Assembly (NCBI GenBank): GCA_009602725.1
Contig: WELB01000038.1
Location: forward strand, 462,051-517,992
From: Spirogloea muscicola
Lineage: Eukaryota; Streptophyta; Zygnematophyceae; Spirogloeales; Spirogloeaceae
DNA length: 55,942 nucleotides
Direction: 5' to 3'
A program made the position numbers and the translations under genes. Positions 39,601 through 55,942 of this stretch are shown in pieces (within the stretch, counting starts at the first letter, position 1; each line of letters begins with the position of its first letter). Under the pieces are notes generated by a model. It searched no databases. It was given only the letters and a program-made list of their open reading frames with translations, and was not told where the DNA came from.

Positions 39601-41502
39601 GGTGACCTGTAGATGCTCACCTATGCCATCCTTCAGTCCGATCATGTATGGGAACACTCCAGGGGCTATCATTGAATACATGCATCGAGCAAGATAGGAA
39701 GCATATCAAGGCCATGCATTGTCCTTCGCGTCAGAGATGCTCTTTGCAATGTATACTTATGTCTAGTAGGTCCGCAGATACATGAGGTCCCGGCTTGCTT
39801 CTGTAGCTCCAGTTGCAGTCCTTTTCCTGGTGCTGCTTCTCAGCGCCACTTCCTTGTGACTTGCTAATCAGCAGTGCGGTTATGGAGCATGGAGTTGAAT
39901 ACGAACCTGGCATCCTACAAGGGCCACAACTATCCTGTCTGGGATGTACAGGTGGGAGGATTTCTTTGGCAGGAGTACTCAGATGCCTATCGCCCACCGA
40001 GTGAGGGCATAATGCAGGACCCCTGGCACTCACCACTCTGTGTTTTGCTGCAACAGTTCAGCCCTGTTGGCTTGTACTTTGCGTCTGCCTCCCACGACCG
40101 CACGGCCCGCCTTTGGTCCATGGAGCGGAGCCAGCCGCTGCGCATCATGGCCGGGCATCTGTCTGATGTGGATGTGAGGCTCTGGCTGAATCATCTGTTT
40201 CCTATTGTCTCTTTGTCTCACAAATTGGTAGAGATATGTGTGACAAACAATTGTGAGCCAAGCATGTGCTGCTTTGTCTTCCATCTACATTTTCGATCAT
40301 GCATCAACATTGTTATGAGAACATTGTATCAATCAAGTGCAGTGGGCTGTTGACGCTACAGTCAACGACTGCAGAGAATTGATATTGGAGTAGGTGCGTC
40401 GTCTGGAAGTGTGTCAGGTGGCACGTGAACTGCAACTACATCGCCACAGGCTCAAGCGACAAGACGGTGCGCTTGTGGGATGTCCAGTCTGGGGAGTGCA
40501 TGCGCATCTTTGCCGGGCACAGAGGCTCTGTGCTGTCCTTGGCAATGTCCCCAGACGGCAGGTAGGTCAACCTGATATTTCCTTTTTTAATCACAATAAG
40601 AGCCACCAGATCTAGGATTGGCCATATGGTGCATAAATCTACACAGACTTTCGTTTAACAGTGTGATGGCTCTTTGATCTCCTGGCGCAGGTTCATGGCC
40701 TCTGGCGATGAGGACGGCGCAATCATGATGTGGGACTTGGGGTCTGGCCGGCGTGTCACGCCGCTCCTCGGCCATACTGCTTGCGTCTGGAGCCTCGCTT
40801 TCAGGTACAACAGCGCTCCACTCATGCATGCAAAAACAGCTACGCCTGCAGGTCTGCCGACTTGGAGAGTGAGGAGACTTGCACACTGTGTGCCGTGTTC
40901 ACTTGGTGCGGAACTTCTTGCAGTGGGGAGGGGTCGCTCCTAGCGTCTGGATCTGCAGATAACACTGTGCGGCTATGGGACGTCAGTGGCAGCACAAAAG
41001 CCCCACGTTTGACCGAGAAGTATGACACTGTGAACCACACTTCAGCTGGCAGACAATGTTCTGAGTTTATGATACTGCCACGCGCTTCCGCGAGAATGAT
41101 TCAGTGGACCTGCAATACAAGGCACTTGGACTGGTAATCCTCCCTCTTGGCACTGAGAGACGATGCATGTCAACATGGTGCAGGGGGAATGCCGCAGCTA
41201 ACAGGAGGTTGCGGTTGGTGAAGACTTTGCCGACCAAGTCTACACCGGTGTACGCGCTGCAGGTGAGGAATGAACTCCTGCAGTAGTCTGAAAGCAGCCC
41301 CTAATATGTCGCACTCAGTGCACATACCACGGAAAAGAGTTGGTGAAGTTGGTGCCTGAGCTAGCTGGACAGACCCTGCGCAAACAAATGCTTGGAATGG
41401 CTATCTGACCAGTCAACTCTGCTGCAGTTCACGAGGCGCAACCTGCTGTTGGCATCTGGAGCCTTCACTCCTCCGAAGCCCTCTCCACAGCTTGTTACCT
41501 GA
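36476..41502 (+). CDS. TAF5: TAF5, WD40 subunit of TFIID/SAGA (5' end incomplete)
   Basis: Eighteen exons; after the first (ends 36800) they are 36945-37042, 37193-37249, 37436-37523, 37705-37835, 38017-38112, 38332-38477, 38664-38774, 38898-38967, 39205-39259, 39422-39601, 39875-39951, 40057-40173, 40410-40561, 40691-40804, 40924-41019, 41205-41262, 41428-41502, all in phase. The conserved TAF5 N-terminal domain 2 is present (LLHILYPVFVHAFLELVSKG, ARE-FFGEF, VHLRDLQKLEGV, YSFNLLLQLLQ). An acidic/basic linker follows, then six WD40 repeats: GHSGPVYATCFS, VRLWSMELN, ASASHDRTARLW, ATGSSDKTVRLWDV, ASGDEDGAIMMWDL, ASGSADNTVRLWDV. It ends TLPTKSTPVYALQFTRRNLL, typical of the family. TAF5 scaffolds TFIID. 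No in-frame ATG or LisH motif is seen before the Pro-run (36601-36652), so the true first exon lies upstream of, or was displaced by, LINE fragments. Confidence 0.93.
36601..36653. repeat. (CCG)n microsatellite in TAF5 exon 1
   Basis: About 17 CCG/GCC triplets encode a polyproline run just before LQEPSLAALAAAGLL of TAF5. The conserved domain begins about 30 residues later. Confidence 0.95.
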
Positions 41503-42616
41503 ACAAATTTTGCAGTAAAGGCATGTACAGATTTTCCAGAGGCAATGAGTTTGAGCACCAGGTGCCATGCTTCTATTGCTTGTGTCCTCATAGTGATGGC
41601 GCTTGTAGCTTGCCGCCAGGCCTGTGGTAGGAAGATGGTCAGTCTCTTGCAGGCTGTGCCAGAGCCACCCGGGGTAGGGTTTCCTGCATCACAGGAAGAG
41701 GACGAGCTCTTCAGCTCTCAGCTGGGTGCAGCTGCCTCAGCAGCATATCAACGTGGGGCGTTGTCGTACGCCGTGCTTTCAGACTTAGAGCTCAGAGAGG
41801 GCTCGTGTAACGCAAGATGGTCCGGCCACCGTGGCGCACGCCTGGAAGTGGAGGGCTTGGGGCTTGTCCTGCTGGACTCCCTTTATAGTCGACGCTCACC
41901 TTGACCATGTCAACCTTGGACCTGGCCTTTCATAGCACCGCCTTTTCTTGGACAGCTCCTTCTTGCTAGTGCTCATACCTTGGTCACTTCTTTTGGGCTG
42001 GCTTCTCACGCTTCCCTTCTCACAGCCATCGCCTTGCTTAAATTGAGCCGTATCTTTCGTGGGCTGGCCCTTGCCCACTTTAAGAGGCTGCCTTTTTTGC
42101 TCCTACTGCTAGCATAGATAGGGCTTCGCTTTCCGTAATCCATTTCTTGCACTAGCTTCTGCGTGAACAGTGTGTTGGCTTAAATTGGCCTCACTTTCAT
42201 TTCGCGCTCACCGCGTGCCTTCTCTGTCTTTCATGCTGCCAGCAGCTGGACTCCGGCGGCAGCAAAGAAGCCCCGAGTCCCCCACCTCGGCCTGCGCTGC
42301 CGCACGCAGCCCGGCACGCCGCCTTGGTCCTGGCCGGCGGCTCTCGGCATTGATTATTCTTCTTGGGCTGGCCGATCACAGCTTTCGCCCTCTACTGGAA
42401 GAGTCTTTCTCTCGGCCGCCGCCCAGCGCCGCCATGGCGGCCGCGCGAGCTCCGCCGTGGGGTTTGAGCACCAGGCCCGCCCGGAGGCCTCGTTCACACT
42501 AGTCGGGTCCATCAACGTTGGCAGCCTTTTGGCCTCGCCCGGCCCTGTGGAGCTGCTTCGTGGGCGAGCACTGAGTTCCCAGCTGCCGCTAGCCCCTGCC
42601 GTGGGAACGCGCCCCT

Positions 42617-42658
<42 letters not shown>

Positions 42659-42727
42659 TCCGCCGTGGTTCAGGGGGTTTAGATTCTAGGGTTCAACGTT
42701 GAGGGGTTAGGTTTTAGGTTTTAAGGC
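41503..42727. mobile_element. Intergenic region with LINE-tail and other repeat fragments
   Basis: 41985-42015 and 42058-42080 carry TTTTGGGCTGGCTTCTCAC and GGGCTGGCCC tail pieces. 42184-42230 is copy 3 of the GGCCTCCC...CTTCTCT repeat. 42355-42410 matches the tail variant GGGCTGGCCGATCACAG...CTCTACTGGAAGAG also seen at 35733-35770. 42615-42660 is a (GCC)n array, and 42680-42722 holds TAGGGTTCAACG and GGGTTAGGTTTTAGG. No exon is supported before the dehydrogenase. Confidence 0.6.
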
Positions 42728-44842
42728 CGACGCAGCGGCAATGGGCTTGGCGGCGTACGTGACGGCGCGGCGGGNGCAGGCGAGGCCGCGGCGCGCCGCT
42801 TCGGCGCCGCCGAGCTCCCCGGCAAGGTCCGCGCCGCCGCCGCCGCTGCGAAACCCTGATCCTAAACCCCAAATCCCTGAGCCCTGGAGCGGAAGCCTGA
42901 GAGTCCGCGGCTTCGGCGGCGCAGGTGGAGGTGCGGGAGCTGGACCTGGCGTCGCTGGCGTCCGTGCGCGCCTTCGCGGCGGCGTTCAGGGCCTCGGGCC
43001 TGCCGCTCCACTTCCTCATGTCCGCCGCCGCCCCTCCGCACTGACACCGCCGCTGCCGCTGCCGCTGCTGGCGGGGGCCTCTGATGGGCTCTCGCGCTAA
43101 ACCCGCCCGCTGGCGCCGCACACAAAACCCCATTCTCCAAAACCTTCACAAACCCTTCAACTCGAACCCTAGACATCCATACTTGTCCACCCAAACCCCA
43201 ACAAACCCTTGACCATAAACCCTGCCCTGAGCCTAGACCTCCATGCCTGTCCCCCTAAACCCTGGATTCGCTACGCAGAGGCTGGACAAAGCGTCGGACT
43301 GGTGGACTCCGGAAGAGTCTTTGTCTTTCTCTCTCTGGAGCTCTGGGGTTCAAGTCCAGCCTCGCTCACCCCGCCTCGTCCCTGCTTCGCCTCCCTCGCC
43401 CCGCGGCGGCGGCCTGCAGCAACAACGCCGGCGTCATGGCGTGCCCCTTCGAGCTCACCGCCGACGGCCACGAGCTGCAGTTCGCTACCAACCACCTGGG
43501 TGCGCAGCGCTGCGCCGGCCATGGCAGGCGCGCCCATCTTGCCGGCCGTTTCTGGGCGCTTTGTGGGTCCTGTTGCCTTGTGGGTTGGCCGTGCCGGCCC
43601 TCGGCTGACAGCGGCCCTCGGTGACAGCAATGGCGGCGGCGGCGGCCAGGCCACTTCCTGCTCACCAGCCTGCTCCTGCCGGAGCTCAAGGCGAGCGCGG
43701 ACGCCAGCGGCGCCGAGTCGCGCGTCGTGGTCGTCGCCTCGATGGCGCACAAGCTCTTCCCGGTCAAGGGTGGCATCGACTTTGACAACATCAATGACAA
43801 GAGGAGGTGAGTGCCGGCCCGCTCGCTCATCGTCCCGTCGGCCTCCATGGCCTTCAAAAGCCTAATCTGGCGAACATCTATCTTGCCTCCCAGGTATTCG
43901 CGGACAGGGGCATACGGCCAGTCGAAGTTGGCCAACATCCTGCACGCCCGCGAGCTCGCTCGACGGCTCCAGGTCAGGGGCGGCGCCTCCTGACAGTTGC
44001 GCGTCCATCTCTCTTCTCGCTGCCCATGCAAAGGAGCTGCTGGCTTTGCATTTCTGCTGTCCTTCACACGTAGCTGTTGCTGCAGGCGGATGGTGTGACA
44101 AATGTGACGGTGAACGCCCTGTGCCCGGGGTCCATTTCCACGAAGCTCCAGCGCCATCTGGGCCCAGCCTGGGCCAGCGGTGACATTGGCCGACCCTCTC
44201 TGCTTCTTACCTATACCCTTACTGCAGAACTTTAGTGCTGAATGATTAGCCTTCATTGTGAAAGATAGAGTATACATGTGAATCTCTACTAGAGACAATG
44301 CCCGCCCGCTCTTTGCTCCTAAAGTACGGAGCCTGTCTCCTAACCTGGCTGCCTACATGAGATGGTTGAGCAGGCACCTGGCTGACATTGACTGTTTGTA
44401 CCTGCTGCAGCAATTTTCAAGCTGCCGTTCCAGTTCCTACTCAAGTCCATACCCCAGGTTTGCGACATCGTCGCTTGGCTTAGGCAGCAAGAGGCAGTGC
44501 GGCATGACAGGACTGTTACATTTCCTCCACTCTCGTGCTATTTGCTGCTGACTGCCAGGAGTCAGCCACAGCGAGCTACGTGGTAGTGAGCCCGACACTT
44601 GCGGGCATCAGCGGCATGTACTTCCGTGCCTGCAATGAGAATGAGGGTTCGTGCTTTCTGCTGCTGACTGCCAGGGTGCAGCCACAACGTGCTATGTTGC
44701 AACGAGCCCCACACTTGCGGGCGTCAGCGGCAAGTACTTCACGGACTGCAATGAAAACGAGGCTTCGTCGTCGGCCATGTCCCACGACGATGGGCTGGCC
44801 AAGAGACTCTGGGAGTATAGCGAGAAGGCCACAAACCTATGA
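42728..44842 (+). CDS. Short-chain dehydrogenase/reductase (retinol dehydrogenase/TIC32 type), 5' incomplete
   Basis: Exons: about 42728-42826, 42925-43019, 43420-43499, 43650-43806, 43894-43972, 44086-44179, 44411-44457, 44675-44842, all phase-consistent. Together they read [73 protein letters not shown], the catalytic [19 protein letters not shown] and a C-terminal [12 protein letters not shown]. These are classical SDR features: NNAG, Ser, and Tyr-x3-Lys, with an NAD(P) fold. The N-terminal Gly-rich TGxxxGxG motif is not found; the first exon seen starts just after it and contains an N at 42774, next to a (GCC)n array. Substrate is unknown; the family reduces aldehydes/ketones, and some plastid members act on pigments or in import. 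A near-copy of the last exon lies at 44559. Confidence 0.85.
42851..42890 (+). repeat. Telomere-like tract in dehydrogenase intron
   Basis: AAACCCTGATCCTAAACCCC and AAATCCCTGAGCCCT fall wholly inside the 98-bp intron 42827-42924, making up much of it. Confidence 0.65.
43095..43265 (+). repeat. Long degenerate CCCTAAA/AAACCC tract in dehydrogenase intron
   Basis: The intron 43020-43419 contains many spaced copies: CGCTAAACCCG, CACAAAACCCC, AAACCCTTCAACTCGAACCC, TAGACATCC, CCAAACCCC, AAACCCTTGACC, TAAACCCTGCC and CCTAAACCCTGG. It also contains two copies of a TAGAC(C/A)TCCAT(G/A)C block at about 43172 and 43231. Confidence 0.7.
44535..44765 (+). repeat. Tandem duplication of the dehydrogenase terminal exon
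   Basis: The unit starting GTGCTATTTGCTGCTGACTG at 44535 recurs as GTGCTTTCTGCTGCTGACTG at 44651, 116 bp on. Both end their intron part with GACTGCCAG and then encode (E/G)(S/A)AT-YV--SPTLAG(I/V)SG-YF--CNENE. The downstream copy has the proper stop and family-like sequence (GKYFTDCNE). The upstream copy has diverged (GMYFRACNE) and reads on into a different frame. Confidence 0.85.
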
Positions 44843-45674
44843 ACGGAGCAAGCTGTAAAAGGGCCACAGGGCAGTGCTTGATCACCGGTCTCGTGGAGCA
44901 TGGACACAAAGCACAAAGCAGCCACCTCTGCGAAGATTGGCAGGCAGCACGCTTCGGGGCTGCCATCTTGCCATGCCACACGTGCCACCCTTCCAGAAGC
45001 CATGTAGTGTTATGTATATTGCTATCCAGCTGCAGCTCTGGAACAGGCTGTCTTCTCGTGTCCCCCCACAAATCCTATTGCTTGCCACACACATAGCTTC
45101 TTCACATAGACATATTGGCAGCCTTGCTTCCTGGAATCGAAGTCTTGGCTCTAGCTACAGCTTGCTGCTGCTGTTGCACCAGTCTGCACACAGCATATTA
45201 TTATGACAGCATCTGTTGTACGGATGCAGAATCAGCATCCAGCTGGCAAGGTCGTTAGAGGCATCATATATAATGTTGACAGAGAGCAAAATTTCCTGAT
45301 TCAAGTGTGTGCTAATGTGCTCGATTCAAGCAAGCTGGTGATGCTCGTGAGTTCTAGGTAAGCACAATAGGCAGGCCCACCTTTGCCGAGCATGTGCAAA
45401 TGCTGTACGTTATCGACAGCGCTTCAGTGATTTCAATTTGGAATGCACAAATTGAGGGCTTGGTGGAGAGTGACGACGAGCTGATACTTGCAGTGCCAAA
45501 ATTGGATGGCATGTTGTGAGAGCGAGAATGTTGTGTCAGGTGACGAGCCATCATGTGGTAAACTCGACTGCCCACAAACATCACCACGTCTGGCAACGTC
45601 TGGCCAGCACCTATCTATTCGGCTACGAACTGCACTTTCAGGTGCAGACACAGCAGCAAATGGCTACTTGTTCA
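44843..45674. other. Convergent intergenic region
   Basis: The region lies between the 3' ends of the dehydrogenase (+) and the HOS15-like gene (-). No exon, RNA gene or repeat is recognised; it should contain both 3' UTRs and poly(A) signals. Confidence 0.6.
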
Positions 45675-48600
45675 TCACATTCTAAAGTCGAGGACGCAGA
45701 CGGTGTTGTTGGAGAAGCAGGCAGCCACCTTGTCTCCATCGCCGTTCCAGCAGACCTCGAAGATGCCGCTGCTGCCTCTGTAGGTCCGGATGAGTGACCC
45801 GTCCTTGACGGACCAGATGTGAAGGCAGCAATCGAAGGATCCGCTCGCCAGCAGCTCTCCGTTTGGGCTGAAGGCCACAGAGTAGACCGGCTCTCTGCAA
45901 AGACGGGCCCGTAAGCACTGTCAAATGAAAAAGCATGGACAACAGCAGGAAGATTGAGCTGATCTTACCCTCTTTATGACCAACTACAGGCACTTAGGAG
46001 CGATCTACTTCGCCAACAAGTTGAATGTGAAACAAAAATGGTGGGGGCTCAGCAATGAGCAGCCCAGGGAGGCCAGAGACTCACGTGTGCTTGGTGAGGC
46101 TGTGGAGCCTCGTGCCTTGCTCCACCTCCCATAGCTTGATGGTCGCATCAAACGATGCGCTGCACGACAGCCAAGACATGCCTTGTAGGTTCAGCACACC
46201 TCAGTTGCAATAGCCTAGCCGTGTGTTCCAGCCTAGCAACTGGTTGTGCAGTCGCCTGATCCTGGGCTGCAACTTACATGGCACTGCAATAGGTGCCTGA
46301 ATCATGAGGAGCATTATTGTAACGTTCATACCTTGCCAACACAAGCTGCTGGTTGGGGTTACTGGTGCCAGGCCCTCCAGGACTCCACTTTATGGTATAT
46401 ATCTCCTGCTTGACAACAATGGCAACACAACAGCCTTGCAGAAGATATAAGGTGCTGCTTGCTATCTCGGACATGAAAGGCAAGTCTAGACACCTTCGTT
46501 CAATCCTCTGCATCCTCCGACATCAAGATGCAAGGTCAAGGACAGAAGGGGACGTCTCTCACCTTCTGATGCTCCTTAAAATCGTGTAAGCACTTATCCT
46601 GCTTTAAGCTCCAGATCTACAAAACCCAACATCAAACTTGAGCCCCTTAGACACAAGGGCTGTTGAGGGTCTAGCTCTCCACTCAGACAGCAACATTCGT
46701 ATGACATGCAATTCTAGGCAGTAGAAGAAAGATGAATGCGGCTGCTGATGCGGCTGTGTGCAGTTCCAAGGAGACTTGCCACCAGACTACAGCGAACTTA
46801 TACACACAAGACACTGTCAAATGAGAGCAAAGTCATCGGTCTCATGTGACAGTGTCTTGTATGTCTTGTGTGTGGACGAGCACGCTTACCTTTGCGGTGT
46901 GATCGTCTGAGCAAGAAGCAAGTAAAGTGCCGGTAGGATCCCATTTTATGGCGTTGACTTCGTCCTGTCGAGGGAAAGGACGAACTTTCACATATAGCGG
47001 ATATGGGTGTGCAACTAAGAGAGGCATCTGCTGAAGCACACAACACCACAAGAGAGTAGCCAGGCCGGCAGACCTGGTGGCCAGCGAAAGCCTTGACAGG
47101 CCGGGTCTCTCCGAGCTTGCAGACGTATATCATTTTGTCTGTGGAGGATGTTGCAAAGCTCGTATTGTTTCTCCAATCCACGTCCAAGGTAGGGGCTGCT
47201 TCAGCAGAGGATCTCGTCAACATATGCGCCTTCCACAAATTTTCTGGGCTTCAAAGTGTACAGCATCTGCTCAACCTCGAAGCAGGTGCAAGCAGGGATG
47301 ACTACTCCTTTCCATGAGTCTGCGGCATCATGTTGAATGCTCCATGTCCGGCTTACCTGAGTGAAACTCGAACTGCTGCTTCACTTCGCCAGTCTTTGCA
47401 TCCCAGATAATGGCAGTCTTGTCTACACTGCCGCTGAGAAGGCAATCAGCTTTCTTGTTCCACTTCAAAGAGAAGATGGGGCCTTTGTGCTTGTTCAGCG
47501 TGTTCTTCAGCTCCCCTGACCACACATGCCAGGACATGCATTGTGAGTCTCTGAAGATGTGCCAGCAAGATCGTTCAAGATGAAAGAGTGTCGCAAGGTC
47601 TTCATATCCGCTTGCGATACGACAACATAGAAGGAGATAATGGAAAACGAGGAATGCAAGCAGCATGCTGAGTGCCGCTAGCCATGAGCAGCGCTGCAGA
47701 AAGCATACCCACCATCTTTACTCCAGACCCGCGCTTGTCCATCATAGGAGCCCGTAGCCAACAATGATCCATCACCCTGATGGCCATAATTACAAGTAAA
47801 TCAAGCTCAACCATTGCACAAAGCAGGACCTAGTGCACTCACAAGCCACGATGTAATCTGCGACAAAAAGGACGATGGAGGTCTACGGGCATGGTGGATG
47901 ATTGCATGCGAGTTGGACAGAGGTGATCCATACATTCCAGTCAAGTGTGGTGACGTCTTTGCTCTTCTCGTTTGTCTTTCCCTTCAAGTGCTTCAACACC
48001 ACTGCGCGGGCACTGGCTTGAGCAGCAGGTCCTGATGGCCCGTCCGGGAGGGACCAAATCCTTGCCGTGGAGTCGCCAGACCTGAGCACAAGGGGTGTCA
48101 TCTAAGTCAGGATACAGATGCATCATGCTTGCTTAGAAGTTTGACCAATCCAATCACGTCCTGTTACAATGATCCCAACATCCAGTCAAGTGCTCTTGTA
48201 CTCACTAACCCTCACATCCTGAGCCCTTACAGTAAAAGCTGGAATTGCCATGCAGCCTGACATATAACAATTAGGCAGGCTTTGTAGTGCAATTTGCAGC
48301 TAAAGGGACTAGTAGTGCCTGCCTGTGTTCAAACGGCTCACCCAGAAGCTAAAAGGGACCCCGTGGAGCTCCAGGCGCAGATGAAGACCTATACAGTGGA
48401 GCATGTTAAATAATAACAGCTTAAAGGTCATGCTCGTCAGCAACTCAGCTCAGTCATGCATTCCTTATATTGACAGAGTCATCAAAGACCTGCATGTAAG
48501 TGCTTCAAGATAGCCAGCACAAGCCTTCAGCTAGCCGCCTTATCATGATGCGTGCTCTCAGTAATCCTAGCAATGTACATTCTACACAGGACCCTTTGCA

Positions 48601-49993: not shown

Positions 49994-50740
49994 GGCAGCA
50001 TGCCACGACGGCTCCGCCTCGACTCGACGTTCTGAGCCTTATGAGGCTTGGAGAGTGGGCGCAGAGCGAGGAATAACCACAGAATTACGGTATTAGTAGC
50101 CGGGTCTAGGTTTCCATATAGGAATGCCGTTCAGCTTTCAGGCCCCCCTTGGCAGGCGGCGCGCGGCAGTCGGCGCCCGCTGCCGCGCCGCCTCGGGCTC
50201 ATGCGCCGCCGCCGCCGCAGCCGCACGTCTGGCGCCCGCGAGGAGCCCCCCGGTGCTGCGGCCTCGCCGCCACAACGCCGGCCGCGGCAGCCTCCCGCAG
50301 GCTCCGTCCCAGCGGCCTCAGAGCGCCTCCACTCGCTTCAATCCGAAGGCTTCTCAGCCTTCTTCTCAGTCGTCGCCGCCGCCGCCTCCGAGGCCGAGAC
50401 TTGCCGCGCTTGCGCCATCTGCCGCGCACCTGGCGCACGGGCCAGGCGCCGCGGGCCGCCGCCGCTTTCTCTGCCTGCCTTGGTCGCCGCCGGCTGTGCC
50501 ACGTGGCAGGCGCCCTCCCGGGAGCTCTCGCAGCCCGGCGGCGGCGGCGGCGGCGGCGGGACAGTGGTGTGATGGCCAAGGTTTCCTTCAAAGGAGAGGG
50601 CCTGCTCGAGGCAGAGGCTTGTACATAGCCCGGAGCGGGGCGCGGGGAGGGGGGGTGGTTGCTCTCATAGGCATTTTTGGATTTTGTTTGGGAAAGCTTT
50701 GGGAAGGCGCTGCTTGGCCCCTTTCATGGCCTCCCCATCT
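49994..50740. promoter_or_regulatory. GC-rich 5' region of HOS15, no gene called
   Basis: Very GC-rich DNA with GCCGCCGCC and GGCGGC runs (to about 50560) and several overlapping Arg/Pro/Ala frames. A plus-strand first exon is possible, but no domain or splice partner supports one. It must include the HOS15 promoter. Confidence 0.45.
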
Positions 50741-51300
50741 CTTAATACACACGCATTCCTTTCGGGCATCAGTTAGCGACCTCTATGGAGAAGGGCTCGC
50801 CCATTGAGGATAGGGGCTGGAAAAGCCAGCCCAAGAAAGAATGAACAAAGTACGAGAAGGGGGCCAGAGGATGTGCTGTTTCGTGGTTACTGAGCGCTTA
50901 GCAGCAGGTGACGTACATTTGTCGATGTGCTTGCCTCTGTACTTGGCCACAGAGAGAAGGGCTCGCCCATTGAGAATATGGGCTGGAACAGCCAGAGGCC
51001 CTCCATTTCTCAATACACACTCACTTTCTCCTTCGGAGAAGGGCTCGCCTCGGACCTTGTCCATCCGTTTCGGGCTGGCCTTTGACAGCCCTGGCCCCCT
51101 TCTGTCCGGTATTCGGGCATCGGTTAGCGACCTCTATGTGGAGACTCGTGGTTGCTCTGCGGGTCAGCTTAGCAGCAGGTGATGTACATCTGTCGATGTG
51201 CTTGCCCTTCGTACGTGGCCACACAGGCCCTCCATTACTGAACACACACTCCAGTCCCTTTTCCGCTATAAATACTCCAGCGTGCTGGGCGTGCATTAGG
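50740..51300 (+). mobile_element. LINE tails, families A and B, plus orientation for B
   Basis: Family B appears at 50765-50960 and 51105-51235 (GGGCATCGGTTAGCGACCTC, CTTAGCAGCAGGTGATGTAC, GTCGATGTGCTTGCC, GTACTTGGCC). Family A tail pieces in the opposite sense lie at 50788-50870 and 50955-50995 (CTCGCCCATTGAGGATAGGG, GGGCTGGaaaaGCCAGCCC). A further GGGCTGGCCTTTGACAGCCC hairpin is at 51072-51092. Confidence 0.8.
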
Positions 51301-51437
51301 CCAGGCTTATGGCTTCCGTGGTGGTGGTCTGGCTCCTCAGCTTAGCTTGTCAGATATGTGCTCACTCGAGGATATATGTGTCCCCTTGCTCTTGCTTGCT
51401 AGCTCATCGACCCGTACCAGGACATTTGTAAGGCTAG

Positions 51438-51490
51438 ATTTGGCCTCCCCTTCGAATTCATGCGCACCGCGCGCCTTCTCTCTCTCTTCG
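51438..51490 (+). repeat. GGCCTCCC...CTTCTCTCTC repeat, copy 4
   Basis: TTTGGCCTCCCCTTCGAATT, CATGCGCACCGCGCGCCTT and CTCTCTCTC match the copies at 15796, 16517 and 42184. It is followed by a GGGCTGTGGCC half-hairpin as in the LINE tail. This suggests the block is part of a larger repeat. Confidence 0.65.
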
Positions 51491-51820
51491 TTTGGAGAGC
51501 CACTTTCTTTCCCAGCCCTCTTTTCTTTCTTTTGTCTGGGCTGTGGCCTCATTGATACCTTGGCCAAACATGTTCTGTGAGGCCGACTCAGAGAGATTCT
51601 GCTGCATGTGGTCTTGCCCCTGACCCAGCTTGCCTCGGATATACAACGCCTTTGTTCGGCGGGCTCACGGGCTCTGCTTGCCTTCAACTGACAACTTGGT
51701 GGTCTTTGTGCCACTACCATGGCCAGCTCAGGCGTCAATATGACATGCTCGGAGGAGCTATACTCAAACAGCCCAGCGATCCTCATCGCAGTAGAGGGTG
51801 TCAGTTATCTACAGAGAACC

Positions 51821-54800
51821 TTAATCAGCTGCATGCTGCCACCGTTCCTTGGCAAGGTCAATGTTGGCCACCAATCCATTGTCGTACACCACCTGCCAAG
51901 GTCATCCGTGCCCTTGCTCAGAGGCATGCTGTCAGCGCACTTAATGATGTGCAACATGCAGGCAAGACTTCTGCGAGGTCTCTAATGGTGTGGGAATGAT
52001 CACAGACCTGATAATGCTTCGCGAACTCGAAGTCCTTCACTTCAGCAGTCAAGTATCTGACAGGACATGTGCACCCATCAGTGTCCTGCCATCGTGCAGA
52101 GAAGAGTCGATATGGACAAGGGCATCAATTAATAAGCAGTACTGCAAAAAGAGTTCGTACTACTGCTAGCCTGCGTTCATACCTGTGTAGTTCAGTACTC
52201 CAGATGTTGATACGGCTGCCCAACAACTCGCATGCTTGCCTCCTGCCCACCCTCTGCATGTAATGCAAGCTTGATTGATGTATCAGACTCAGACGATGCT
52301 GTGCATGAGCCCGTAAGCCCGTTATCTGCATGAGCAGGGCCAGGACATCCAGATGTGCAGGGAGGATAACAATCTAAAAGTTGCGGGGTGCTGGCCCAGT
52401 GCAATGCAAGCAACAAATGACAAGATTCCTATGCCGCGGCTGGGGCAAATGAACCTTAGTGCGTGCAATTGCAAGCTTGCTGACTTCCTCGTACTTCCAG
52501 TCCTCCTTGCTCAAGTTCAGCTCCTCTGTAGTCCCATCCTCATACAGGATCTGTTTTTAAAACAAAACAGCAAATAAGCTCTCCTGTCTATAGATTGTAC
52601 ATCGTCCTAATGCGGCTGCCCATTTGCCAATCACTGGTATTCGGGGGCGCAATTCACACCGTGTGCTTTTTGGTCACCACGTTGTAACACTTGACGTCCC
52701 CGCAGTAATATCTGCAGCTTCGAAGATGAACTTCCAGTCAGTGACTTCTGTCTTATCAGCATAGAAACATTTACGCAAAGCGGATGTGCAGCTATTTTAG
52801 TCAGCTTTGGCCAGAGAAGGCAAAAACCAACGTCAAGATCAGCGATAAGCTGATGGAGGGCAATGCTCGTCATCTACTCTTGGCAGACTTACGCCTGGTC
52901 AAGCGGCCACCACACCCTGACCCGTTTGCCACACAAGGAGATCAACGACAGGATCTTGCTCCTGGATAACATCTGCCCGTCTGCTGTAGTCAGCCATGCG
53001 AAGACCAACACAAGAGGCTTAATGATTTGCAGACAACTTGTCAAAGTCAGTCATGATTGAAGTCTAAGCTTGAAACACACTGGATGTTGCACAGGCATCT
53101 GGTCTTCTATGTCACCTCTGTCAGCGTTGCCCTCTGCTGTTGGAGGCTGCTGCGAGGTAGCCGGGAAGAGCTCTCTGTGGACATCGTTCTGATAGTCCTT
53201 CTGCGCCCCAGACATCACGTGCACATCAGGAAACCTGCAACTGGTGCCAGGGCAGTAACCAGAAAGTAGAAACTCATTGAGATAGTGCAAGTGGTATAAA
53301 AGGAGCTGAGCTCCAAAGGTTGGAGGTTTATCGTGTACAAGCAGAGCAACAACAGAAACGGCAGGATAGCTGGCAAAGGAACCTTTGTGTTGGCTGACAG
53401 GATACCGCGGCAACCCTCCATTCCGCAGTGACAGTCCATCCGCTCTGAACCGAACTGAACAAACCTGCAGAAGCAGCCACATTCTCATCATTTCCATCAC
53501 ATTCTCATTATTGACCAGCTCTTGTGCACGATACATTTGCCCAAAGCTGATAACAAGGAGGTGCAACCATTAAGAGGGCCGCCATAAGGGCATAGCCAGA
53601 GAAAGACTTGAGCAAGAGCAAAGGCCTGGAGTAAACAGCAGATAAAGAGTTACTTGAACAACTGCAAGAACCCCTTACTGGTAATTGTAGCTCAGTGTGG
53701 AGCCCTTTGATATGTCAGTTGTTGCGTGGATGCCAATCCTCATCTCCCCATCAATGTGCCTGTGACTTGTGCCCTAATTAGAGTACGTGTACTCGTCGAT
53801 GGTGGAACTGGTGCAAGAGTTGTGCAGAGAGAGGAGAAGTCCAGCGCACCACTTTTGCAACTCGCAATTTGGGCGGCAGCTGTGGTTGATGAGCCGCGAC
53901 AAGTTGCCCTTGAAGGTTGCATCAATAACCATGTCGCGATTGATCTCAACCATGTAGAAGTCCTGCGCCTTTTGGGCCTTCAGGTCCCACAGCCTCTGCT
54001 CGCACGTCGCATCGTCAATGACTGCAACGGAAGTGAATCATGGAGATGTGAGACCGCCAGCTCTCACGATGCTGACCATAAATACATGTCATCCATAATG
54101 CAGGAATATCCTAGAGCTTAGGCATGGACGGCTGAAGGTTGTGGGGCAATGGAGTTTGCATCAAGGTCAGGCTTCGTGTGCTTTTCTCGTGGATGCACAT
54201 GAGCTTCCGAAGAAGCACATCAAGCAGCCCAGGAGTGCCGGTGTGCTTATGCCAAATATGCTGGGCATGCAGTATTCCTCAATAGTCCTACCTTCACCGA
54301 CATATTCAATTATGAAAGACCCCTCCTTTATGTCTTCGGCAGCTCGCACTCCCCAGCCGCACTTCTCAGTCTGCAGCAATGTTCAGGCTTCAGGAAGGCG
54401 AAACCGTTATGACAAATTTCCACTTTGGATATCAATGCTGGCCGAGTGCTGGCCGGCTAGCGCAGACCTTGACGGGCTTGAGCTTGGGGCCGCGGCGCCT
54501 GTGAAAGGGCACGTTGCCGCACGTCTGCCCGCATGCGCAGAGCTTGGAACATGTAGTGAACAGCACCCTGCCGTCAAAGACAGTGTCTGTCCGTCAGACC
54601 CAGGCTCTACTGAAGCCGACGTGCCTCACGCGGCCCATTGGAGAGCTTGATAGCCGCCTTAATTGTCAATAGTCAAGCTGCGAATGCTAAGTGATGCATT
54701 GCAACAATTGTCGCCCCCAGTCGCTGCTCTTTGTGTCCTCCCACTTGCTTGCTACCAGCTTCACAGCAGGTACAGGCTATTGTAACGTGGGTCGCCTTTA

Positions 54801-55899
54801 GGCAAGCGGCTGCAATCGTCTGATCGCCATGGAGAAAGATGAAGCTGTAGGTGTGACAGAAGGTGCGTAGCAGAGTACCTGCAGAGGCAGTCGCTGTCAC
54901 ACCGCCCGCTCGGCTCAGCGCCACCGCCTCCATTGGGCGCGTTCGCTACCTCTGCCGCCGCGCAGCTGCACGGCATGCAGTCCCCCTTGCCCTTGTGCTT
55001 GGGCCGCTTTGCGACGTACTCGCCTTCACAATGGCGCTGGTCAAGGAGCACGGCTCAACGATGCCTTGCCAAGACACAGGCGACGCGCAAACCCCATTCG
55101 AGTTGATGTAGATTCAATACATTTTGTATAAATCTATTGTAACAGCAGCCGGCTCAGCTGGCAGGATACTGCGCTTGATGTGGACGAACGGCGGCGGGCG
55201 CTCCGCCGAGGGCTTGTGGGCTCTGCCGGCCTGCGCCAGCAGCGCAGCCGGGACCTCGAACTCTCTGGGCGTCTGCGGAACTCGCAGCTGCCTGAACGCC
55301 AAACCCACGTCGCATGCGCGCATGGCCGCCCGCTCCACCTGCAGCAGACGCGCACGGCAGACTGAGATCACGGGTTCAAACCCCGTTGCTCGCCGACTCC
55401 GACGTCCTCCCTGGCTTGGCTTTTGGCTAAACCCTGGCTGCCCAGCTTTGGTACAGTGGCCAACCGCCAATATGGGATTATTTGGGCGCACCTCATGGGC
55501 CTCGTCTCTGGCGGCGTGCCGGTCGCAGAGGAAGCGGCGCTGGGCGTCGCCGGCGAGCAGCCGGGCGCCGCCCACGCGGGCGAGGCAGGCCTTGTGCAGC
55601 GCGCGGGGGCAGCTTGCGCAACGGAGCAGCAGCGGCGACGAAGCGCCGTCGGCGGCGTCGAGGCCATCGCCGTCGGCGTCGGGGCCGCCGCAGGCCTCGC
55701 AGGCGTGCAGCGGGCAGACGCGGCCGTCGGCCGTCGTCGCCCGCAGGCACTCGGCGTGGTACAGCTGCCGGCATTGCCCGTGGCGGCAGACCATGAGGCC
55801 AGCGCCGACGTTGCCGCCGCCGCCGCCTCCGCCGCCGCCGCCGCCCTCCTTGCAGTAGAAGCAGACGGCCTGCGCGGGCTCGCCGGGGGCCCCGGCCAG
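51821..55899 (-). CDS. PHD-AWS-SET-postSET histone methyltransferase with two Tudor-like domains (5' partial)
   Basis: Fourteen exons seen: 55492-55899, 54879-55036, 54468-54567, 54292-54370, 53850-54021, 53679-53759, 53383-53464, 53093-53200, 52893-52972, 52660-52711, 52455-52550, 52183-52253, 52008-52056, 51821-51892, all in phase. Order: PHD-type fingers (CFYC, CRHGQC, LYHAEC, CEACGG, CASCPRALHKAC, CDRHAA); AWS (CMPCSC, CDSDCLC, CSKLCACGQTCGN); SET (CGWGVRAAEDIKEGSFIIEYVGE, SRLINHSCRPNC, STLSYNYQ); post-SET (CHCGMEGCRG). Then two modules GKRVRVWWPLDQAYYCGDVK...LYEDGTTEELNL and LLGSRINIWSTELHRYLTAEVK...VVYDNGLVANIDL resemble plant Tudor-like domains. AWS-SET-postSET marks the ASH1/NSD/SETD2 group that methylates H3K36; specificity here is inferred. 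The gene probably continues past the right edge, since 55899 follows an acceptor-like ACAG. Confidence 0.9.
55345..55400 (+). pseudogene. tRNA 3'-half remnant (perfect T arm) in a SET-gene intron
   Basis: ACGGG-TTCAAAC-CCCGT at 55370-55386 forms a perfect 5-bp T stem and 7-base loop, and GGTTCAAACCC is a good pol III B box. No D arm or A box is found upstream and the acceptor partner is missing. It lies in the intron 55037-55491, antisense to the SET gene. A tRNA-derived SINE remnant is likely. Confidence 0.45.
55815..55850. repeat. (GCC)n microsatellite in the SET-gene PHD exon
   Basis: GCCGCCGCC/TCC units encode a polyglycine run between the CFYCKE and CRHGQC zinc-ligand pairs. The insertion lengthens the first PHD loop by about twelve residues without removing ligands. 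Confidence 0.9.
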
Positions 55900-55942
55900 C
55901 TGTCAGGCAGGGCACGGCTGCAGGCCCTGCGGCGGGCGAGCC

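Follow-up and report, generated by a model that had tools for sequence, protein, structure and literature searches.

Gene organization

In a 55,942-nucleotide stretch of the genome of Spirogloea muscicola (contig WELB01000038.1 of assembly GCA_009602725.1; 153 Mb in 471 contigs), referred to below as the window, a gene on the minus strand occupies positions 51821-55869 and contains 15 visible exons and 14 introns. The exons encode PHD, AWS, SET and post-SET domains, in this order, followed by two tandem Tudor units, Tudor 1 and Tudor 2 (Table 1). The coding sequence starts beyond the window, upstream of exon 1, and the protein analysis covers the 572 visible residues.

A DNA search of the same genome with the 4.1-kb region returned three full-length matches: the window copy itself (contig C38) and copies on contigs C14 and C12, both 87% identical to it. 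The remaining listed matches were short repeats. The three copies served as an internal comparison for each exon and intron, and splice sites were fixed by their three-way alignment. All 42 donors are GT and all 42 acceptors AG, the phases agree between the copies, and the reading frame stays open for 572, 572 and 571 visible residues. A sequence-only reading made earlier had proposed a gene with this domain order, with every junction in phase, spanning 51821 to 55899. Both Tudor strings quoted in that reading, the SET/post-SET region and the PHD region were recovered on the minus strand, and the phases bear the proposal out. The 3' end of the span was also kept, while the 5'-most visible exon most likely begins at 55869 rather than 55899.

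The starts of exon 3 (55023) and exon 9 (53200) were chosen because alternative acceptors are unconserved or out of phase in some copies. A start of exon 3 near 55041 was dropped, since the conserved AAG acceptor at 55023 restores the frame. For exon 9, an acceptor at 53234 (ttgcag) was rejected as being in the wrong phase and unconserved in the C14 and C12 copies, and another candidate acceptor of intron 8, GCTYAG/CTCC, was found by reading the alignment to be in phase in the window and C14 copies and out of phase in C12.

Table 1. Visible exons of the gene, listed 5' to 3' along the coding strand (window coordinates)
Exon	Encoded part	Position	Strand	Basis
1 (5'-most visible)	NSD-type PHD (PHD_NSD), then PHDvar_NSD-like variant PHD, glycine run	55492..55869	-	Pfam; acceptor GCGCAG kept in 3/3 copies
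2	Linker toward AWS (..PPFVHIKR)	55170..55338	-	Phases 0/1, splice sites conserved
3	AWS start (SEYVAKRPK..DCLCR)	54879..55023	-	AAG acceptor weak, but kept in 3/3 copies
4	Remainder of AWS	54468..54567	-	Pfam AWS 3.3e-5
5	SET N-terminal part (GWG, EYVGE)	54292..54370	-	Gene model and PDB match
6	SET core (NHSCRPNCELQKW)	53850..54021	-	Gene model and PDB match
7	SET C-terminal part (LSYNYQ)	53679..53759	-	Gene model and PDB match
8	Post-SET (CHCGMEGCRG)	53383..53464	-	Donor AAG/GTT kept in 3/3 copies
9	SET-Tudor linker	53116..53200	-	Open and indel-free in 3 copies; acceptor GCGCAG/AAG weak, conserved
10	Tudor 1, first part (GKRVRVWWPLDQA)	52893..52980	-	Gene model and PDB match
11	Tudor 1, middle (YYCGDVKCYNVVTKKHT)	52660..52711	-	Gene model and PDB match
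12	Tudor 1, end (ILYEDGTTEELNLSKEDW)	52455..52550	-	Gene model, Pfam and PDB match
13	Tudor 2, first part (GSRINIWSTELHR)	52183..52253	-	Gene model, PDB match and cage alignment
14	Tudor 2, middle (YLTAEVKDFEFAKHYQ)	52008..52056	-	Gene model, PDB match and cage alignment
15	Tudor 2, end (VVYDNGLVANIDLAKERW), and stop codon TAA	51821..51892	-	Gene model, PDB match and cage alignment

The methyltransferase part

Four Pfam families scored above their cut-offs: SET (4.7e-26), PHD_NSD (3.5e-10; residues 3-55, 40.5 bits against a cut-off of 23.9), PTM_DIR17_Tudor (1.2e-7) and AWS (3.3e-5), the last one barely (24.3 versus 23.3 bits). A match to PHDvar_NSD (9.2e-5, 22.8 bits) remained under the cut-off of 27. 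When the SET part was compared with PDB entries (best 60 of 120 matches), the closest structures were NSD3 (2.3e-50) and SETD2 (2.4e-50), with NSD2 and ASH1L behind them, and the best enzymes specific for lysine 4 and lysine 9 of histone H3 (H3K4 and H3K9) reached 8e-23 and 3.5e-22, respectively. In four alignments, GWG, EYVGE, NHSCRPNC, NYQF and the post-SET cysteines, which we take to be the usual catalytic motifs, align to NSD3 and SETD2. With AWS, SET and post-SET all present and the motifs intact, the protein is predicted to be a SET methyltransferase of the Ash/NSD/SETD2 class. Its likely target, by family, is lysine 36 of histone H3 (H3K36), since the SET part is much closer in score to H3K36 enzymes than to those acting on H3K4 or H3K9.

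A search of the genome for AWS domains gave eight matches, five of them above the cut-off (on contigs C129, C99, C112, C205 and C34), with the exon of this gene falling below the cut-off in two copies; the gene is therefore one of several Ash-class genes. Of 13 PHD_NSD matches in the genome, three exceeded the cut-off, one in each copy of this gene. No PWWP domain was found among the ten Pfam families matching at E up to 10 within the visible residues, which lack the N-terminus. Neither was a PHD/C5HCH module found after SET: no best Pfam stretch of that kind lies past residue 402, and only four cysteines are present there. Because Tudor units occur after SET instead of PHD/C5HCH, we did not file the gene as NSD.

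Tudor 1

Tudor 1 matches the Tudor domain of Arabidopsis RDM15 (PDB 7de9; PMC13361950), a reader of mono-methylated H3K4 (H3K4me1), over the whole domain, with E = 1.5e-14 and 24-26 of 52 residues identical, and is also above the cut-off of the Pfam PTM_DIR17_Tudor model. In RDM15, as described in an excerpt of PMC8184781, residues W616, Y623 and Y641 form the aromatic cage, the aspartates D643 and D645 bind both protons of mono-methyl-lysine, and E647 together with Q654 holds H3R2. Five of these seven contacts (W616, Y623, Y641, D643 and E647) are retained in all three copies of Tudor 1. The other two are substituted, D645 by T (in all three copies) and Q654 by E, and the specificity for mono-methyl-lysine may therefore have been lost. 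We conclude that Tudor 1 is likely a methyl-lysine reader, a strict choice of H3K4me1 not being assured.

The same substitutions, which remove some of the contacts to H3K4me1 and H3R2, leave room for a fused protein whose Tudor 1 reads another ligand, be it the enzyme's own product H3K36me2/3 (for spreading), some other methyl-lysine or methyl-arginine, or for a Tudor 1 that merely stabilises the fold. The Tudor of PHF1 reads H3K36me3 with a similarly placed cage (excerpt of PMC8184781), and recruitment of ASHH3 via existing H3K36me3 has been proposed (excerpt of PMC11204290). Given the extent of identity to the RDM15 Tudor, the complete cage and the retained D643 and E647, we nevertheless regard this alternative, the strongest of those considered, as less likely.

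A scan of the genome with PTM_DIR17_Tudor produced 12 matches, five above the cut-off. None of them falls in the gene described here, in which the Tudor exons are split. Another gene present in three copies (C2:1530928-1531170, C14:290322-290573 and C36:500414-500605) encodes a Tudor of the RDM15 type, contained in a single open frame; this Tudor keeps both aspartates, with W, F, Y, D, D and E at the first six contacts (as read in the C36 copy).

Tudor 2

Tudor 2 alone was matched by no Pfam Tudor model. Its top PDB match is the RDM15 Tudor (E = 0.0022; next match, 0.13). On a Tudor profile built from Tudor 1 of the three copies, RDM15 and one further Tudor of the genome, Tudor 2 scored 22.9 bits, versus 14.3 bits or less for 3000 shuffles (2715 scored); a control with 63-residue windows (44 scored) was unusable, its five best windows overlapping Tudor 1. 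A direct comparison of Tudor 1 and Tudor 2 with hhalign (one pair) gave a probability of 89% and an E-value of 2.2e-6. The internal introns of both units fall at the same alignment columns (15 and 33) and in the same phases (2 and 0), and the simplest account is therefore that Tudor 2 arose as a tandem copy of the three-exon Tudor 1 unit. Another Tudor gene of the genome (C19/C119) appears, with splice sites read by eye, to have just the phase-0 intron in common with them.

The cage of Tudor 2 is lost in each of the three copies: W616 is replaced by S or N and Y623 by L, with Y641 kept. Among the other contacts, D643 is changed to N, D645 to L or M, and E647 to A. Judged by these residues, the pair consists of a probable reader and a worn copy of it. 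The sequence-only reading had suggested two likely methyl-lysine/arginine readers and a profile search of the C-terminal part as a check; on both counts Tudor 1 agrees with the suggestion, having kept the methyl-lysine cage and being found by Pfam, and Tudor 2 does not.

Copies of the gene and selection on the exons

The three copies differ by 6% in exons and by 16-17% in introns. For exons 1-8, the ratio of nonsynonymous to synonymous divergence (dN/dS) lies at 0.17-0.19, and for exons 9-15 at 0.12-0.21. In exons 9-15, no indel is present in any copy, and the 60 variable columns are distributed as 12, 16 and 32 over codon positions 1, 2 and 3.

Window positions 40001-46000 also match C14 (84%) and C12 (82% and 87%, in two pieces); thus, larger segments, beyond the gene itself, are triplicated. 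The copies are collinear, with segment identity of 82-87% and synonymous divergence (dS) between the gene copies of 0.17-0.19. Three collinear, diverged copies are as expected for a triplicated or hybrid genome, and a genome triplication in S. muscicola has been described (excerpts of PMC11712027 and PMC7994812). The RuBisCO large subunit, searched for as a plastid marker, gave no match in this genome, and one Lhca-type exon was compared with PDB chains in its place. Chains such as 9s1l_4 (1.9e-79), 5l8r_4 (2.1e-76) and 7wfd_A4 (4.2e-76) came out well ahead of 7yca_4 (6.6e-54) and 7dz7_4 (1.7e-46); 5l8r and 7wfd are from land plants, 7yca and 7dz7 from chlorophyte algae. Taken with the triplication, this tentatively fits a streptophyte alga.

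Exon 1 departs from the rest of the gene in its silent sites. Here, dS between the C14 and C12 copies is 0.03, and that between either of them and the window copy is 0.13-0.14, while over the whole gene the three copies are about equidistant; the pattern looks like a gene-conversion tract. A GGC/glycine run, whose length and sequence vary from copy to copy, lies inside the PHD region, between the first cysteine pairs (ca. 55810-55850). It constitutes one of three short families of direct repeats within the gene.

The joint between the SET and Tudor parts

The weakest point of the model is the joint between the SET and Tudor parts, at intron 8. The acceptor of this intron, in front of exon 9, ranks with the weakest acceptors of all 14 introns (scores of 0.4, -0.4 and 0.8 on a matrix built from the introns of the same gene), and an in-frame ATG (reading MSGAQ or MSAAQ) is present in all three copies at 53215, 15 bases 5' of exon 9. 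Exon 9 itself is weakly constrained (dN/dS of 0.15, 0.46 and 0.36), and its variable columns (3, 6 and 6 by codon position) lack a third-position excess. Each of these features, as well as the agreement of the window and C12 copies at 23 of the first 27 residues obtained by reading through the end of exon 8, is compatible with two transcription units: a SET gene that ends by reading through the exon 8 donor, and a small double-Tudor gene whose start codon is the ATG at 53215; alternatively, the Tudor part might be made from an internal start as well.

We consider such an arrangement quite improbable. The read-through ends after 55, 17 and 35 residues in the three copies, and in C14 the frame is shifted after a single residue. 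Since four of the five codons that differ between the window and C12 tails alter the residue, the likeness of these tails appears to reflect slowly diverging DNA and not protein constraint. The donor of exon 8 is conserved. The distance from exon 8 to the ATG is ca. 170 bases, and the read-through stop of the window copy overlaps the ATG; there is therefore little room for the end of one gene and a new promoter. Tudor-bearing proteins of the Ash class have, in addition, already been published. With a phase-0 end of exon 8 and a phase-1 start of exon 10, the frame cannot be joined without exon 9. A single gene comprising both the SET and Tudor parts is, as judged from the sequence, probable. 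That unrelated exons were taken as a single gene through an assembly or annotation artefact is scarcely credible, given that the order recurs on three contigs, that the splice sites are conserved and that the SET and Tudor exons are under constraint.

Proposed function

The comparisons above demonstrate the anatomy of the gene, its open reading frames, its family matches, the duplication of the Tudor unit and selection acting on most parts. From them we infer a single transcript, an H3K36 target, an H3K4-methylation ligand and the coupling of the last two. In the reading that we favor, with a probability of about 65%, the locus is one gene for an Ash/NSD-class H3K36 methyltransferase that would dock on H3K4-methylated chromatin through a C-terminal Tudor of the RDM15 type. 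Tudor 1 would bring the enzyme to nucleosomes with low-methylated H3K4, H3K4me1 first, although the methylation state may be chosen less strictly, and the docked SET domain would methylate H3K36 at the same nucleosomes. Tudor 2, being cage-less, probably packs on Tudor 1 or binds something else. The description of the protein as a read-write chromatin enzyme, given in the sequence-only reading, thus stands as the best reading of a chain in which writer and Tudor are encoded in phase.

Several observations weigh against this proposal. To the two substitutions in Tudor 1 and the features of exon 9 and its acceptor given above should be added the top scores of the SET part, which fail to separate NSD from SETD2, and the loose constraint on exon 1 (dN/dS of 0.32, 0.57 and 1.21). 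For Arabidopsis ASHH3, it has been speculated that the recruiting marks are H3K9me2 and H3K36me3 rather than H3K4me1 (excerpt of PMC11204290).

Such a link between the two marks has precedents. The same excerpt cites H3K4me1 as helping to recruit H3K36 methyltransferases in Arabidopsis, and SDG8, itself an H3K36 methyltransferase, has a CW domain with a preference for H3K4me1 (excerpt of PMC13361950). A narrower version of our proposal, put forward tentatively and with somewhat less than even odds, is that this plant-lineage H3K36 methyltransferase reads H3K4me1 directly via its own RDM15-type Tudor, and that the second Tudor, having lost its cage after duplication, has taken another role, for instance in setting geometry or an autoinhibited state.

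Other features of the window

Within intron 1, a tRNA-like motif (GGTTTGAACC) is present at ca. 55369-55416; related forms are seen in the C14 and C12 copies and in one further listed match (C117), and the motif is perhaps an old tRNA-derived element. No tRNA was predicted in the window by ARAGORN, and no Rfam family scored above its gathering score in window positions 50000-55942. On the 3' side of the gene, at 50770-51260, phrases such as ggcgagcccttctc and aagcacatcgaca recur in slightly different settings. Short stretches at ca. 42111-42246, 42350-42443 and 42610-42665 match many contigs with 76-96% identity and represent a dispersed repeat.

Comparison with known proteins

The sequence-only reading had considered the fusion of a writer to two likely readers of this type uncommon. 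The combination of a writer and a Royal-family reader is already known in the Ash class, and since Tudor domains in Ash-class SET proteins have been published, the gene is a variant of a known arrangement. In Class II-1A of the Ash class, AWS-SET and TUDOR are found in the same protein in Selaginella and Marchantia, as they are here, although in Table 1 of that paper TUDOR accompanies AWS-SET and not, as in our gene, PHD-AWS-SET (excerpt of PMC5725981). A Tudor_SF domain is reported in the ASHH3/ASHH4 branches, with a PHD in some ASHH3 proteins (excerpt of PMC11508336). The comparison with these proteins is by description, as the passages of PMC5725981 and PMC11508336 state neither the sequence nor the position nor the subtype of the Tudor. 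In the passages available from the open-licence literature, there is no mention of an RDM15 subtype, a cage or a degenerate tandem Tudor copy for Ash-class proteins.

The same domain order was also looked for outside eukaryotes. In viral contigs, the 572-residue alignment gave 26 pattern matches, none of which was confirmed, and a 308-residue version gave no match; in bacterial and archaeal genome contigs, there were seven pattern matches, none confirmed. These collections are not algal and the patterns cannot bridge introns, so that the misses say little.

With NSD1, NSD2 and NSD3, the protein shares PHD_NSD and a variant PHD ahead of AWS-SET-postSET, and its best PDB match is NSD3. It differs from them in that no PWWP was found in the visible part and in that the Tudor pair replaces the post-SET PHD/C5HCH. 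The ASH1-like proteins of Chlamydomonas and Volvox likewise combine an algal AWS-SET with a gained Royal-family reader, but this reader is PWWP and not an RDM15-type Tudor (excerpt of PMC3457860). The Tudor of RDM15 itself is matched by Tudor 1 over the full domain with the aromatic cage kept, the differences being the changes at D645 and Q654 and the location of Tudor 1 on a methyltransferase. Tudor 2, a worn unit still linked to its neighbor by shared introns, is a clean case in which a domain was duplicated and one copy then lost its binding site.

The closest functional parallel is SDG8 (ASHH2), an H3K36 methyltransferase with an attached H3K4me1 reader. There the reader is a CW zinc finger, the one domain named in the excerpt of PMC13361950 as able to bring an H3K36 methyltransferase to H3K4me1; no CW is present among the Pfam matches of our gene. 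If our proposal is correct, the gene would provide a physical link from H3K4me1 to H3K36, with a Tudor doing what the CW finger does in SDG8. The presence on a methyltransferase of a Tudor from an H3K4me1-reading family would thus suggest, in an alga that may be allied to land plants, a second, direct and testable route for H3K4me1-guided H3K36 methylation of gene bodies.

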